DNA of 5,750 bases, taken from the NCBI GenBank assembly GCA_016209155.1, contig JACQWU010000226.1, positions 1 to 5,750 on the forward strand. The letters are read 5' to 3'. Made by a program: the position numbers and the translations under genes. This stretch comes from Candidatus Desantisiibacteriota bacterium (GTDB lineage Bacteria > JACRDZ01). The notes under the pieces are model-generated. The model searched no databases. It was given only the letters and a program-made list of their open reading frames with translations, and was not told where the DNA came from. This document shows positions 2-4,880 of this stretch, in pieces; the first letter of the stretch is position 1, and each line of letters begins with the position of its first letter.

Positions 2-256
2 ACAGCCGGAAATGCGCTTGCTCAGAATTATAATTGGAGTTTCACAACCGGCACGGCAACAAATACAGTAGACGGAACTGGCAAAGCTAAGAAAGGTTGT
101 ATTATAACAACAATAACTTATGGTTCATCTCTTAATACATGCATAAAAACTCTTACGGAATTTAAAGACAGATATTTATTTAAAAATTCTATTGGAGAAT
201 TTGTTACGGAAATTTATTATAAAGTATCTCCATCGATTACTGAGTTTATATATTAA
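2..256 (+). CDS. C-terminal fragment of a secreted protein: Ig-like (Big_5-type) domain end plus CFI-box C-terminal domain
   Basis: The frame is open from the left edge to the TAA at 254-256, so the visible 84 residues are the 3' end of a longer gene. Residues 1-18 end in NYNWSFTTGT, the typical last strand of the SbsA-like Ig domain (Big_5), which often occurs in tandem in surface proteins. After a short Gly/Lys linker comes GCIITTITYGSSLN (residues 32-45), then FKDRYLFKNSIGEFV and YYKVSPSITEFIY. This matches the CFI-box C-terminal module (usual form CFIATAAYGS...FRD.YL..N..G...V..YY..SP). Such modules end large exported, repeat-rich proteins; their function is unknown. Seen here: the usual leading CFI is GCI, and the protein stops right after SPSITEFIY, without the hydrophobic stretch many relatives carry. 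A role in surface display or adhesion is inference. A strong hairpin terminator follows 20 nt after the stop. Confidence 0.75.
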   Translation, partial: TAGNALAQNYNWSFTTGTATNTVDGTGKAKKGCIITTITYGSSLNTCIKTLTEFKDRYLFKNSIGEFVTEIYYKVSPSITEFIY

Positions 257-373: not shown

Positions 374-571
374 GTGGATGAGAGGGGACAGATGATTTTA
401 CCTAAAACCTTAAGGGAAAAAGCAAATATAAAAGCAGGGGATAAATTTGCTATTGTCAGCTGGGAAAAGGACAATAAGGTGTGCTGTATTTCGCTTGTTA
501 AGGTTGATGATTTTGTGGAAATGGTAAAAGATTCTCTTGGCCCGATAATGGAAGATTTTTTTAAAAAATAG
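374..571 (+). CDS. SpoVT/AbrB-like HgcAB-associated small protein (start unclear, N-terminus probably extends upstream)
   Basis: The frame gives 65 residues from a GTG. VDERGQMILPKTLREKANIKAGDKFAIVSW is a swapped-hairpin AbrB (SpoVT-AbrB) DNA-binding fold, and KVCCISLVK followed by a short helical tail ending GPIMEDFFKK resembles the small AbrB-like proteins found next to hgcAB (sometimes called HgcC; name from memory, so not assigned). A role as DNA-binding regulator or accessory factor of mercury methylation is inference. The start is odd. In-frame codons before the GTG read KIESLVC, which is the expected first beta strand, so starting at 374 would cut the fold. No ATG, GTG or TTG lies in frame between the TGA at 335-337 and 374, and no Shine-Dalgarno precedes 374. 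One base less in CCC (348-350) would join ATG at 343 and give MCRKIESLVCVDERGQ, about 75 residues. One base more in AAAA (353-356) would join GTG at 345. A sequence error, a real frameshift or a non-standard start are all possible. The stop is 8 nt before hgcA. Confidence 0.75.
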   Translation: MDERGQMILPKTLREKANIKAGDKFAIVSWEKDNKVCCISLVKVDDFVEMVKDSLGPIMEDFFKK

Positions 572-579
572 GGATAAAA

Positions 580-1596
580 ATGAATTTTATAAAAAAATGG
601 ATAAATACAGATGCAGGTAAAATTCCTGTAGTTAATACTTCTCTTGATTGGACTGACAACTTTGGCACAATCAAAGCAAGACTTACATTCGGCAGGATGA
701 ACTATAAAGTTGAGCCGGGAATTTATGCAGTGGGCAATCCAAATTCTGATTCTTTTGTTTTTGTTTCAGCAAATTATAAAATGAGTTTTGATGTATTGCG
801 GAGTAATCTTTCCGGGATAGATGCGTGGATACTTGTTCTGGATACTGACGGTATAAATGTCTGGTGCGCTGCGGGGAAAGGAACGTTCGGAACCAAAGAA
901 ATTGTTAATCGCATAAAAATTACCGGGCTTGAAAAAATTGTTAATAATAGAAGACTTATAGTGCCTCAATTGGGTGCTCCCGGTGTCTCTTTTTATGATG
1001 TAAAAAAGTTTTCATCTTTTTCAGTAACTTACGGGCCTGTCCGTGCTTCGGATATTCCGGAATTCATTAAAAGCGGGATGAAAGCAACAGAAGATATGCG
1101 TAAAGTGAGGTTTACTTTATATGACAGGGTTGTTCTGATTCCGGCAGAAATTGTTTTAGGAAAAACTTATTTGATTTATGCCGCTTTTGTTATGTTTGTA
1201 TTGTCAGGTCTAAATAAAAATGGTTATTCCGTCTCATTAATTTTTGATAAAGGTGTTTTGTCTATATTAAATGTATTAATAGCTTTTTTCGCAGGGGCGG
1301 CAATAAGTCCTTTATTATTGCCATGGCTACCCGGTAGAAGTTTTTCATTGAAAGGATTTTTTACCGGGATAATCGGATTTATAATTTCTTATTATTGCGG
1401 ATTAACAGGAAATAATGCATTGAAAATTTTTGCATGGTTTTTGCTGTTTTCATCCGCAGTTTCATTTTTAACTATGAATTTTACCGGAGCATCGACATAT
1501 ACTTCACTTTCAGGTGTTAAAAAAGAAATGAAATACGCGGTACCTATGCAAATAGCGGGTGCTATATCAGGACTTTTGATTTGGGCGATTAAATGA
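580..1596 (+). CDS. hgcA: HgcA, corrinoid-dependent mercury methyltransferase, membrane-bound
   Basis: HgcA transfers a methyl group from a corrinoid cofactor to Hg(II), producing methylmercury, with HgcB as partner. The protein has 338 residues, the family's usual length. The N-terminal soluble domain (about 1-175) resembles the corrinoid-binding domain of the acetyl-CoA-pathway corrinoid iron-sulfur protein. It carries the diagnostic cap-helix motif NVWCAAGK at 93-100, in which Cys96 is the expected lower axial ligand to cobalt. It is followed by GTFGT and LIVPQLGAPGV. The C-terminal half has five hydrophobic segments, near 191-211, 225-250, 256-274, 280-299 and 321-337. The loop FTGASTYTSLSGVKKEMKYAVP (301-322) is also characteristic of HgcA. 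ATG at 580 is preceded by TAGGGA, which overlaps the stop of the AbrB-like ORF, suggesting translational coupling. All key residues are present, so the gene looks intact. hgcB follows after a 106-nt gap rather than immediately. Confidence 0.97.
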   Translation: MNFIKKWINTDAGKIPVVNTSLDWTDNFGTIKARLTFGRMNYKVEPGIYAVGNPNSDSFVFVSANYKMSFDVLRSNLSGIDAWILVLDTDGINVWCAAGKGTFGTKEIVNRIKITGLEKIVNNRRLIVPQLGAPGVSFYDVKKFSSFSVTYGPVRASDIPEFIKSGMKATEDMRKVRFTLYDRVVLIPAEIVLGKTYLIYAAFVMFVLSGLNKNGYSVSLIFDKGVLSILNVLIAFFAGAAISPLLLPWLPGRSFSLKGFFTGIIGFIISYYCGLTGNNALKIFAWFLLFSSAVSFLTMNFTGASTYTSLSGVKKEMKYAVPMQIAGAISGLLIWAIK

Positions 1597-1611
1597 TTTG
1601 CGGTACTGTCA

Positions 1612-1639
1612 GTAGAGACGCAAAATTTTGCGTCTCTAC
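1612..1639. repeat. Perfect 28-bp palindrome between hgcA and hgcB, dispersed-repeat-like
   Basis: GTAGAGACGCAAAA (1612-1625) is followed directly by its exact reverse complement, TTTTGCGTCTCTAC (1626-1639). In RNA it would form a stem of about 12 bp with an AATT loop. No U tract follows, so it is a poor terminator. The sequence resembles short palindromes (TAGAGACGC...GCGTCTCTA) that I recall as intergenic dispersed repeats in many bacterial genomes. With only one copy in this window, repeat status is inference. It sits 15 nt after the hgcA stop. Confidence 0.6.
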
Positions 1640-1649
1640 AATTAATATT

Positions 1650-1671
1650 CCATGCGGTCTTTGCTGCATGG
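1650..1671 (+). terminator. Second hairpin in the hgcA-hgcB gap, possible weak terminator or mRNA stem
   Basis: CCATGCGG (1650-1657) pairs with the 1664-1671 arm (CTGCATGG), including one G-U pair and an optional further T-G pair around a CTTT loop. The following TTCTTCATT is U-rich, then comes an A run. The 13-nt tail GGTTCTTCATTAA (1670-1682) is identical to that of the hairpin at 277-316 (307-319). It lies 32 nt before the hgcB start and could attenuate transcription into hgcB or protect the mRNA end. Direct evidence for either is lacking. Confidence 0.45.
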
Positions 1672-1689
1672 TTCTTCATTAAAAAATAC

Positions 1690-1694
1690 AGGAG
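1690..1694 (+). promoter_or_regulatory. Ribosome binding site that fixes the hgcB start
   Basis: AGGAG at 1690-1694 lies 8 nt before ATG 1703. It supports that start over the in-frame ATG at 1652, which sits inside the 1650-1671 hairpin and has no Shine-Dalgarno sequence. The 17 extra residues from 1652 also do not look like the HgcB N-terminus. Confidence 0.85.
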
Positions 1695-1702
1695 AAATAA
1701 TC

Positions 1703-2005
1703 ATGAAAGAGCAGATTTATCTTAATAATGTAGTTACTCTGGAATTGGATATTGATAAATGTAATGGATGCATGATGTGTATGACAGTATGTCCACACCA
1801 TGTCTTTGAATCAAAAAACAAAAAGGTGGAAATAATCAATAAGGATGCATGTATGGAATGCGGCGCATGTGAAAAGAATTGCGCTGCAAAAGCGATAACC
1901 GTAAGATCTGGTGTCGGCTGCGCGGCCGGAATTATAAAGGGGACACTAAGCGGAACAGAACCATGCTGTGGTTGCGGTGAAAAGAATAAAAACAAATGCT
2001 GCTAA
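1703..2005 (+). CDS. hgcB: HgcB, 2x[4Fe-4S] ferredoxin partner of HgcA
   Basis: HgcB reduces the HgcA corrinoid and is thought to bind Hg(II) and hand it over through cysteine thiols. The 100-residue protein has two ferredoxin motifs: Cys20, 23, 26, 30 (CNGCMMCMTVC) and Cys50, 53, 56, 60 (CMECGACEKNC). CMECGAC is typical of HgcB. Cys73 stands at the position of the conserved extra cysteine of characterised HgcB, and the protein ends in a Cys99-Cys100 pair, also typical. An additional CCGC cluster (88, 89, 91) gives this copy an unusually cysteine-rich tail. The chosen ATG has a good ribosome binding site. The gene follows hgcA on the same strand after 106 nt containing two hairpins, so it may be partly uncoupled from hgcA expression. 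The convergent neighbour ends 10 nt away, with no visible terminator between. Confidence 0.95.
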   Translation: MKEQIYLNNVVTLELDIDKCNGCMMCMTVCPHHVFESKNKKVEIINKDACMECGACEKNCAAKAITVRSGVGCAAGIIKGTLSGTEPCCGCGEKNKNKCC

Positions 2006-2632: not shown

Positions 2633-3970
2633 ATGAAATTTCTTAAAGCATCTAATTTAGACGTTTATTCTATAGTACTTATGGCGGTATGGACAATAAT
2701 TGTTGTTAATCTAATTGTTTATGAAATGATTAGTTTGCGCAATAAAACTCATGGTATAGTGCTGGCTCAAGCTAAAACATCTTTTAATAAGGATCTGGCT
2801 TTGCGCAAATGGGTAACAAGCCATGGCGGGGTGTATGTACCAATTGATAAGAAAACTCCGCCCAGTAAGTATCTTTATAATATTCAAGATCGTGATATCG
2901 AAACACCTTCAGGGATAAAACTAACATTAATGAATCCGGCTTATGTTTTACGGCAGATAACTGAGCTATATTCTGATTTGTACGGAGTTAAAGGGCATAT
3001 AACCAGTTTAAAGCCGATACGTCCTGAAAATTCTCCGGATGAGTGGGAAAAAAAATCTTTAACAATTTTTGAACAAGGGGTTAAAGAAAAATTTGAGTTT
3101 ACCAATATAGATGGAAAACCTTTCCTGCGTTTTATGTGTATGATGATTACCGAAGAAGGATGCCTTAAGTGTCATAGTCATCAAGGTTATAAGGTTGGCG
3201 ATGTTCGGGGAGGTATTAGTATTGCAATACCAATGGAAAATTATTTTATTCAAGAACGCAAAGATTTTTTATTACATTTGTTTTGGTATTTGATATTGTG
3301 GAGTTTTGGAGCAACCGGTATTTATTATGGGGCACGCAAAATAAAACAGAATATGTTTGAACGTGATTTGGCTTATGAAGAATTAGAAAAATATCAGGAA
3401 CAACTTGAACAAATAGTCAATGACCGCACATCAAAATTAGAAAAAATAAATCAAAAATTAGAATATCTTACTATTACAGACAGTCTGACAGGCATTGCTA
3501 ATCGCAGATATTTTGATACATTGATTCAAAAAGAATGGAACCGGGCCATGCGTGAATCAAAACCCATCTCATTAATTATGATAGATATTGATTTTTTTAA
3601 ATCATATAATGATTTATACGGTCATCAAAGCGGTGATGAGTGTCTAAAAAAAGCGGCAATGGTATTAGATATTGAAATGAAGCGGGCTGGTGATTTTGTG
3701 GCAAGGTATGGCGGTGAGGAATTTGTAGTAGTATTACCTAATACAAATATATCTGAAGCACTTGCAGTTGCCGAGACATTAAGAACAAGTGTTAATAAAC
3801 TCCAGATCGTTCATGCAGGTTCAAAAATAAATAATTATGTTTCGATTAGTTTGGGGGTTGCCTCTACTATACCTGAAAGGAATTCGCTCGTGGAAAAATT
3901 TATTATGTCAGCTGACAAAAATTTGTATCTTGCTAAAAAAGAAGGAAGAAACATGGTGAAATTCAGTTGA
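2633..3970 (+). CDS. Membrane diguanylate cyclase with CxxCH heme-type (Tll0287-like/DUF3365) sensor domain
   Basis: It condenses two GTP to cyclic di-GMP. The 445 residues comprise TM1 (about 13-30), an extracytoplasmic sensor (about 35-205), TM2 (about 213-233), a coiled coil (about 240-280, ERDLAYEELEKYQEQLEQ...) and a GGDEF domain (about 280-445). The sensor carries CLKCH at 177-181 within EEGCLKCH...GDVRGGISIAIPM, matching the Tll0287-like (DUF3365) family with a covalent c-type heme site, and an upstream NPAYVLRQ stretch also typical of it. In the GGDEF domain, DSLTGIANRR (283-292), the metal-binding Asp318 in IDIDFFK, and GGEEF at 360-364 indicate an active enzyme. RAGD at 351-354, five residues before GGEEF, is the product-inhibition I-site RxxD. 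AAGGA (2622-2626) precedes the ATG. Redox or gas sensing through heme is inferred from the family. The output pathway is not visible in the window. Confidence 0.92.
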   Translation: MKFLKASNLDVYSIVLMAVWTIIVVNLIVYEMISLRNKTHGIVLAQAKTSFNKDLALRKWVTSHGGVYVPIDKKTPPSKYLYNIQDRDIETPSGIKLTLMNPAYVLRQITELYSDLYGVKGHITSLKPIRPENSPDEWEKKSLTIFEQGVKEKFEFTNIDGKPFLRFMCMMITEEGCLKCHSHQGYKVGDVRGGISIAIPMENYFIQERKDFLLHLFWYLILWSFGATGIYYGARKIKQNMFERDLAYEELEKYQEQLEQIVNDRTSKLEKINQKLEYLTITDSLTGIANRRYFDTLIQKEWNRAMRESKPISLIMIDIDFFKSYNDLYGHQSGDECLKKAAMVLDIEMKRAGDFVARYGGEEFVVVLPNTNISEALAVAETLRTSVNKLQIVHAGSKINNYVSISLGVASTIPERNSLVEKFIMSADKNLYLAKKEGRNMVKFS

Positions 3971-4048: not shown

Positions 4049-4822
4049 ATGGGAAAAGTAATCGCGATTGCCAATCAAAAAGGCGGTGTGGGAAAAACTA
4101 CCACGGCTGTAAGTTTAGCCGCATGTCTTGCTGCCGCTGAAAAAAAAACACTGCTTATTGATATTGATCCGCAGGGAAATGCTACCAGCGGGATAGGGAT
4201 AGATAAAAATAATCTAAAATATACTGTTTATGATGTTTTGATAAACGGCAAAACCATTCTGGAAGCAAAAAAGTATACGGAATTAAATTTACTTGAAATT
4301 GTTCCGGCTAATATACATTTGACAGGGGCAGAAGTTGAACTGGTTAATATGCTTTCCCGCGAAACCCGTCTAAAAGAAGCTTTAGACAGGGAGAAAGATA
4401 AATATAATTACATAATAATAGATTCTCCACCATCTCTTGGACTTTTAACTATTAATACTCTGGTAGCTGCTGATTCTGTATTAATACCTGTACAATGTGA
4501 ATATTATGCGCTTGAAGGACTCGGACAATTAATAAATACTATTAATCTGGTAAAAGAAAGGCTCAACCATAACCTTGAAATTGAGGGAGCTCTTTTAACC
4601 ATGCATGATACAAGAATAAATCTGGCCACACAGGTGACGAATGAGATACAAAATTATTTTCAGGATAAGGTATTTAAATCAATTATTCCAAGAAATGTAT
4701 CTTTGAGTGAAGCACCCAGTTTCGGGAAACCGATTATTTTTTACGCAATTAAATCAAAAGGTTCTCAGGCTTATCTTGATTTAACTAAAGAAATAATCAG
4801 TAAAAACGAGAAAAGTACATGA
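4049..4822 (+). CDS. parA: ParA/Soj chromosome-partitioning ATPase
   Basis: A Walker-type ATPase that binds DNA non-specifically as an ATP dimer and is stimulated by ParB, driving segregation of the replication origin. The 257 residues match the Soj-type chromosomal length, without the N-terminal HTH of large plasmid ParAs. The deviant Walker A motif is KGGVGKTTT (11-19) with both Lys11 and Lys16. Walker A' is LLIDIDPQGN (35-44) with Asp40. Walker B is YIIIDSPPSLG (121-131) with Asp125. The C-terminal IPRNVSLSEAPSFGKPI is a Soj signature. ATG 4049 fits the family N-terminus (MGKVIAIANQKGG). Its nearest ribosome-binding sequence, AAGGT (4029-4033), is 15 nt away, so initiation may be weak. parB follows after 71 nt on the same strand, the usual order. 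A chromosomal rather than plasmid origin is inferred from length and sequence type. Confidence 0.95.
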   Translation: MGKVIAIANQKGGVGKTTTAVSLAACLAAAEKKTLLIDIDPQGNATSGIGIDKNNLKYTVYDVLINGKTILEAKKYTELNLLEIVPANIHLTGAEVELVNMLSRETRLKEALDREKDKYNYIIIDSPPSLGLLTINTLVAADSVLIPVQCEYYALEGLGQLINTINLVKERLNHNLEIEGALLTMHDTRINLATQVTNEIQNYFQDKVFKSIIPRNVSLSEAPSFGKPIIFYAIKSKGSQAYLDLTKEIISKNEKST

Positions 4823-4824
4823 AG

Positions 4825-4880
4825 ATTAACCCCTGAAAACAGAGAAAAAAAATGATTTATCAGTGTTCTATGTGGTTAAT
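4825..4880. repeat. Degenerate inverted repeat in the parA-parB gap
   Basis: ATTAACC (4825-4831) and GGTTAAT (4874-4880) are exact mirror arms, and the flanking inner sequences (CTGAAAACAGAG against CAGTGTTCTATGT) still pair partly. The ends recall the ATTAACCACAGAG...CTCTGTGGTTAAT intergenic palindromes I remember from many bacterial genomes, here decayed. It is not a parS site: nothing resembles TGTTTCACGTGAAACA. With one copy in view, the identity is tentative. Confidence 0.35.

Follow-up and report, generated by a model that had tools for sequence, protein, structure and literature searches.

An hgcAB pair behind an apparently decayed hgcC, predicted to encode a thiol regulator common to arsM and hgcAB operons

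We analyzed a stretch of DNA (the window) that makes up a whole contig of 5,750 bases from bin G000. Our overall reading, which we hold to be likely, is that its hgcAB genes are genuine, that HgcC, encoded in front of hgcA, is a predicted thiol regulator common to arsM and hgcAB operons, and that this control has decayed in the window. The hgcAB pair is of a known kind, and the result on the HgcC regulator is the new part. The features of the window are as follows.

2-256, plus strand: end of a CFI-box gene
277-316: 16-bp perfect inverted repeat, a terminator-like hairpin with a T-run on the minus strand
323-571 (core 353-571), plus strand: apparently relic or truncated hgcC, AbrB-like, NF040962
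580-1596, plus strand: hgcA, corrinoid protein of mercury methylation, 338 amino acids (from the NF040863 score and the HgcA tree)
856-879 (nucleotides), plus strand: cap-helix motif NVWCAAGK of HgcA, amino acids 93-100, with Cys96
1612-1639: perfect 28-nt palindrome GTAGAGACGCAAAATTTTGCGTCTCTAC between hgcA and hgcB, RNA hairpin
1650-1671, plus strand: second hairpin between hgcA and hgcB
1703-2005, plus strand: hgcB, 2[4Fe-4S] ferredoxin, 100 amino acids, with Cys73 and a terminal CC (from the NF040864 score and the Cys positions)
3' of hgcB, minus strand: SnoaL/NTF2-like gene
2633-3970: diguanylate cyclase with an N-terminal Tll0287-like domain and one CXXCH heme motif
3' of the diguanylate cyclase: parA and parB

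The first-pass annotation had named a CFI-box protein, a heme diguanylate cyclase, and parAB as neighbors of hgcAB. All were found again, the cyclase, with its CXXCH motif and Tll0287-type domain, being a possible redox or gas sensor. A search of Rfam returned no match, and neither did PADLOC for three window proteins.

The window gene in front of hgcA scored 99.9 bits on the published HgcC model (NF040962, "HgcAB-associated protein HgcC," near_HgcAB; cut-off, 70) and, by this score and its place directly before hgcA, is a member of the HgcC family. We searched the same model in 395 genomes from the phylum of a Syntrophaceae bin and in 400 genomes from the phylum of a Chloroflexi bin, in which 48 and 16 genomes, respectively, exceeded the cut-off. 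Together with the genomes of the window's own phylum, these two phyla yielded 73 HgcC loci, in which the next gene was read with HgcA and ArsM HMMs. The gene directly after HgcC was arsM, coding for arsenite methyltransferase, in 52 of the 73 loci and hgcA in 16, the window included; five loci had neither or an unassigned neighbor, two of them at contig ends. One of the arsM loci, L174, carries hgcAB behind arsM. In a further set of 386 diverse bacteria, 12 new HgcC loci outside the phylum exceeded the cut-off; arsM was clear in 7 of them, and hgcA stood beside HgcC in none of the 12. Among the 80 hgcA loci most like that of the window, only 3 have HgcC. HgcC is mostly a partner of arsM and mostly not an hgcAB gene.

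Both partnerships occur in the sister genus of the window's genome, to which G003 and G001 belong. The order in G003 is hgcC, a gene for a small Cys-rich membrane protein, hgcA, and hgcB. In G001, hgcC lies directly before arsM, the product of which scored 362 bits on the arsenite methyltransferase model NF008823 (cut-off, 263), and no hgcA exceeded the cut-off. A search for arsM elsewhere in G000 gave only a weak generic methyltransferase match of 48.8 bits. The G003 contig also appears as locus L018 (JAQUKH010000008.1). Here the protein between hgcC and hgcA (4678-4869) is about 61 to 64 amino acids long, with several Cys-Cys pairs and one membrane segment; it had no NCBIfam match and is possibly a metal-binding partner. 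Behind hgcB (6344-6679 of L018), by eye, lies an open frame with a carboxymuconolactone-decarboxylase/AhpD-type look, its product ending in a Cys-rich tail, CGKGCKCS.

In a tree of HgcC, the hgcA-linked copies are nested among the arsM-linked ones, with five parsimony switches, or perhaps a single one, in a tree of few columns and weak support. Closely similar HgcC proteins in L174, L156, and L175 head hgcC-arsM-hgcAB, hgcC-hgcA, and hgcC-arsM, respectively, a set that hints at a route from one gene order to the next. By eye, an HgcC-like gene is followed by an ArsC-like low-molecular-weight phosphatase frame with neither arsM nor hgcA in L190 (G405:C75), and by a ferredoxin/nitroreductase-like frame instead of arsM or hgcA in L224 and L226.

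Loci of both classes, arsM and hgcA, carry a TTGACA-type promoter upstream of hgcC, overlapped by TCAG/CTGA half-sites. The promoter was detected in 38 of 49 arsM-type and 11 of 15 hgcA-type loci. At least three half-sites were present upstream in 37 of the 49 arsM-type loci, compared to 0.35 expected from dinucleotide shuffles, and in 13 of the 15 hgcA-type loci, compared to 0.15 expected. Half-site pairs within 60 nt were spaced by an exact multiple of 9 bp in 190 of 227 cases (25 expected). Since the motif was found and counted in the same loci, the shuffles, the 9-bp phase, and hgcA loci lacking HgcC served as controls; the last of these had at least three half-sites in only 6 of 75 cases, over a longer stretch. 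In many loci, both the -10 element and the beginning of the transcribed region are overlapped by the array.

This promoter and 9-bp operator signature, a criterion found here and lying outside the published NF040962 model, is absent from the window. The 170 nt upstream of hgcC contained no half-site and no TTGACA promoter, and a search for an alternative hgcAB promoter in the window gave matches at chance level only. The place that promoter, operator, and start codon of hgcC occupy in relatives is taken by the 277-316 hairpin. Related 30-nt palindromes were found at four other places in G000, each with three mismatches, and perhaps form a second family of palindromic elements.

The coding frame itself is also broken. 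The HgcC core is well conserved (110.6 bits), and the family match begins at 353. There is no in-frame ATG, GTG, or TTG before 374, and the GTG at 374, the sole candidate start, would remove the first conserved strand. Upstream of the core lie two in-frame stops, TGA at 335-337 and TAA at 317-319. At 323-328, in frame with the core, ATTGCTGCGC aligns with the Cys-Cys codons of phylum-mates, including G003, which places the TGA inside the former coding frame. Among the 73 HgcC frames, that of the window is the only one without an ATG, GTG, or TTG at least six codons before the (V/I)DERGQ motif. Judged by a start codon and an N-terminal Cys segment, the window hgcC is not a complete gene. The in-frame alignment of ATTGCTGCGC, with a stop codon on either side, points to a former coding frame through the 5' region that has decayed or carries consensus errors. 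Such conservation of the core suggests one of three things: that the decay is very recent, that GTG 374 serves as the start, or that the consensus is in error. The first-pass annotation had described a complete locus with an AbrB-like gene in front, starting at 374. Completeness stands for hgcAB, and the AbrB-like gene is indeed present and over the HgcC cut-off; as a plain intact gene it does not stand, with a match from 353, no start before 374, and an apparently decayed 5' end instead.

Two other accounts of the stop codons were considered and set aside. A chimera, with an unrelated upstream piece joined to hgcC at the TGA, is weakened by the in-frame homology across the stop. Reading the TGA as selenocysteine meets a TAA two codons before the Cys-Cys codons, with no start between them, and the relatives have no Cys at the TGA position. 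We also observed by eye that a one-base shift would join an ATG at 343 to the hgcC core.

The most serious alternative is that the 5' break is an assembly artifact, produced by erroneous bases or by a false join at a palindromic repeat near the left edge of the contig, and that the cell has an intact, operator-controlled hgcCAB as in G003. We regard this as unlikely, if not strongly so. The break lies less than 340 bases from the edge of a 5,750-base contig, where misjoins are common, the bin is fragmented (3.08 Mb in 352 contigs, 79% complete), the hairpin at the break resembles the four other palindromes in the genome, and the HgcC core is intact. However, the in-frame homology continues past the TGA to the Cys-Cys codons, so there is no simple join at the stop, and base errors cannot account for the absence of both promoter and operator. 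Moreover, nowhere else in the bin does an HgcC fragment exceed the family cut-off, and none of its operator arrays lies outside a coding frame. One array, at G000:C351:1740, falls within a coding frame and was taken as chance. According to our preferred reading, decay of the regulatory region, the loss of operator, promoter, start codon, and a continuous N-terminal Cys region would leave hgcAB outside HgcC control, and the pair in the window would be read from another promoter or be little expressed.

The nearest solved structures to HgcC are SpoVT (E, 4.5e-4 for SpoVT) and archaeal AbrB, which makes a DNA-binding dimer of the swapped-hairpin type the most likely form of HgcC. The N-terminal tail has at least two cysteines in 65 of 67 loci, the two in the window frame lying off the conserved places, and a Cys-Cys in the core is present in 63 of 67. 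In structure predictions for four sequences the core was modeled, and the N-terminal Cys segment was unreliable, with pLDDT near or under 50. Together with the operator, these features suggest that HgcC is a thiol-rich regulator of the AbrB type and probably an autorepressor, responsive to As(III)/Hg(II), common to arsM and hgcAB operons; we infer both the metal sensing and the repression. In relatives, hgcC is the first gene of an operon containing arsM or hgcAB, and TCAG/CTGA half-sites at 9-bp steps cover the -10 region and downstream flank of its sigma-70 promoter. In the likely mechanism, a dimer or oligomer of HgcC on this array would repress its own operon, and As(III) or Hg(II) on the HgcC cysteines would release the repressor. 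One type of thiol sensor would thus control both arsenite methylation and mercury methylation. A fuller version holds that HgcC is no mercury gene at all but a widespread, cysteine-based As(III)/Hg(II) sensor-repressor of AbrB fold with a 9-bp-phased operator, native to the arsM operon, that hgcAB was placed under it in about five switches by parsimony, or perhaps one, and that the lineage of the window lost this brake. We advance it tentatively, giving it slightly less than an even chance. If it holds, arsenic would turn on the methylation of mercury in many bacteria that are still uncultured.

HgcC might instead be an activator of arsM and hgcAB, or a general stress regulator blind to As and Hg, with the link to arsM reflecting another signal, such as thiol redox or antimonite. 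AbrB-type proteins can activate or repress. Nevertheless, the position of the operator in many loci, over the -10 element and the beginning of the transcript, is typical of a repressor, and both partners are methylases acting on soft elements with an affinity for thiols, which makes this alternative rather improbable. It is very unlikely that HgcC is a MazE/PrlF antitoxin of a type II toxin-antitoxin module co-regulating hgcAB, as proposed for archaeal methylators (PMC10349881): the Pfam MazE_antitoxin match is barely over its cut-off (25.7 versus 24.7 bits), while the HgcC model fits far better, at 99.9 bits, the usual downstream partner is arsM or hgcA, and the conserved Cys pairs and the metalloid-methylase partner indicate a metal regulator. 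No toxin gene was seen among the direct downstream neighbors of HgcC, and in the window this neighbor is hgcA.

The hgcA and hgcB genes of the window are a genuine and intact pair. HgcA scored 431.2 bits on the NCBIfam HgcA_corrinoid model NF040863, above the curated equivalog cut-off of 275, and HgcB scored 118.1 bits on NF040864 (cut-off, 99), so the profile check that had been suggested for both proteins supports them. The cap-helix motif N(V/I)WCA(A/G)GK with the corrinoid-facing Cys is present in HgcA as NVWCAAGK, followed by about five hydrophobic segments, all after amino acid 184. In HgcB, two CX2CX2CX3C clusters (cysteines 20/23/26/30 and 50/53/56/60) fit the 4Fe-4S pattern, with Cys73 and C99-C100 at the expected places. 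These are the key residues that the first-pass annotation had read in both genes. The ATG of hgcA lies 8 nt past the hgcC stop. For hgcB, the ATG at 1703 is a better start than that of the longest open reading frame at 1652, because an AGGAG ribosome site (1690-1694) precedes it. HgcA would transfer a methyl group from its own corrinoid to Hg(II), and HgcB would re-reduce the corrinoid. Mercury methylation by the host is predicted from these two families, and the earlier caution that motifs are seen and the organism's activity is inferred still applies. That the window HgcA is a generic corrinoid iron-sulfur protein (CdhD/AcsC-like) with no role in mercury methylation is hardly credible: it shares the CdhD fold (Pfam CdhD, 50.5 bits), and another open frame of G000, 462 codons long, matches HgcA weakly, but the window protein reached only 76 bits on the CODH/ACS (acetyl-CoA decarbonylase/synthase) gamma model (cut-off, 306), against 431 for HgcA, has NVWCAAGK, membrane segments, and an adjoining HgcB, and is nested within the HgcA tree. 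A better fit to CdhD than to HgcA models, named beforehand as grounds for rejecting the gene, was thus not found.

The hgcA-hgcB spacer (1597-1702) as a whole had an RNA folding z of -6.1. The 26-nt core of its palindrome GTAGAGACGCAAAATTTTGCGTCTCTAC occurs at 30 places in G000, with up to three mismatches, and a reversed control pattern occurs at none. This dispersed core ties the contig to the bin. The otherwise differing hairpins at 277-316 and 1650-1680 have a tail, GGTTCTTCATTAA, in common.

Three other genomes of the phylum were available for comparison, in keeping with the earlier guess of an uncultured lineage, and two of them have an HgcA over the cut-off. Placement in an HgcA tree, also suggested beforehand, made the window HgcA sister to that of its phylum-mate G003 (72% identity; SH-aLRT, 95), on a branch neighboring Omnitrophota, KSB1, and Firestonebacteria. 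The HgcA of G002 (L003/L028), from the same phylum and identical to that of JAJRWM010000158.1 (L028), is placed elsewhere in the tree, so hgcA was not simply inherited within the phylum or was replaced; we read this as a possible replacement or transfer. With the window, its host phylum joins the predicted methylators; the regulator there is apparently broken.

Regulators in front of hgcAB have been noted before. Among 904 genomes of putative methylators, McDaniel et al. (2020, PMC7438021) reported one in 112, and a PrlF/MazE/AbrB-like gene in this place was described by Zhang et al. (2023, PMC10349881); both are likely the HgcC family. In the literature outside subscription journals and preprints, we found no statement of a regulator link between HgcC-arsM and hgcAB and no text naming HgcC together with hgcAB. 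AbrB and arsM were named together in single mentions only, and in text on hgcA the words were unlinked. A regulator and operator common to arsM and hgcAB bear directly, and in a testable way, on what induces hgcAB and what purpose it serves in many uncultured methylators. Both arsM and hgcAB may be inducible by arsenic (or mercury) through the same thiol sensor, and the HgcC family would tie together the control of two toxic-element methylations. As a label, HgcC points to an arsM operon more often than to an hgcAB operon, which makes it unsuitable as a marker of mercury methylation.

Apart from its host, the window hgcAB is ordinary for the field. Compared to the hgcAB of cultured and metagenome-assembled (MAG) methylators (NF040863/NF040864), the catalytic and structural residues, gene order, spacing, and size are all alike, whereas the window pair has a dispersed palindromic repeat and two hairpins between the genes and comes from a phylum represented here by four genomes. 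The window copy of HgcC resembles the NF040962 family in its AbrB-like core directly upstream of hgcA and differs in having no start codon, promoter, or operator and in its in-frame TGA; the name of that family omits its main partnership, with arsM. HgcC shares the AbrB swapped-hairpin core with the DNA-binding domains of SpoVT and archaeal AbrB (PDB 2w1t, 2ro5, and 2l66) and additionally has a Cys-rich N terminus and a C-terminal helix. Finally, an ArsR-like regulator of hgcAB has been described in Pseudodesulfovibrio mercurii ND132 (Gionfriddo 2023, as cited in PMC10349881). Its fold is ArsR/SmtB, in contrast to the AbrB fold of HgcC, and the two have no sequence in common; like HgcC, it is small, lies in front of hgcAB, and is linked to arsenic.
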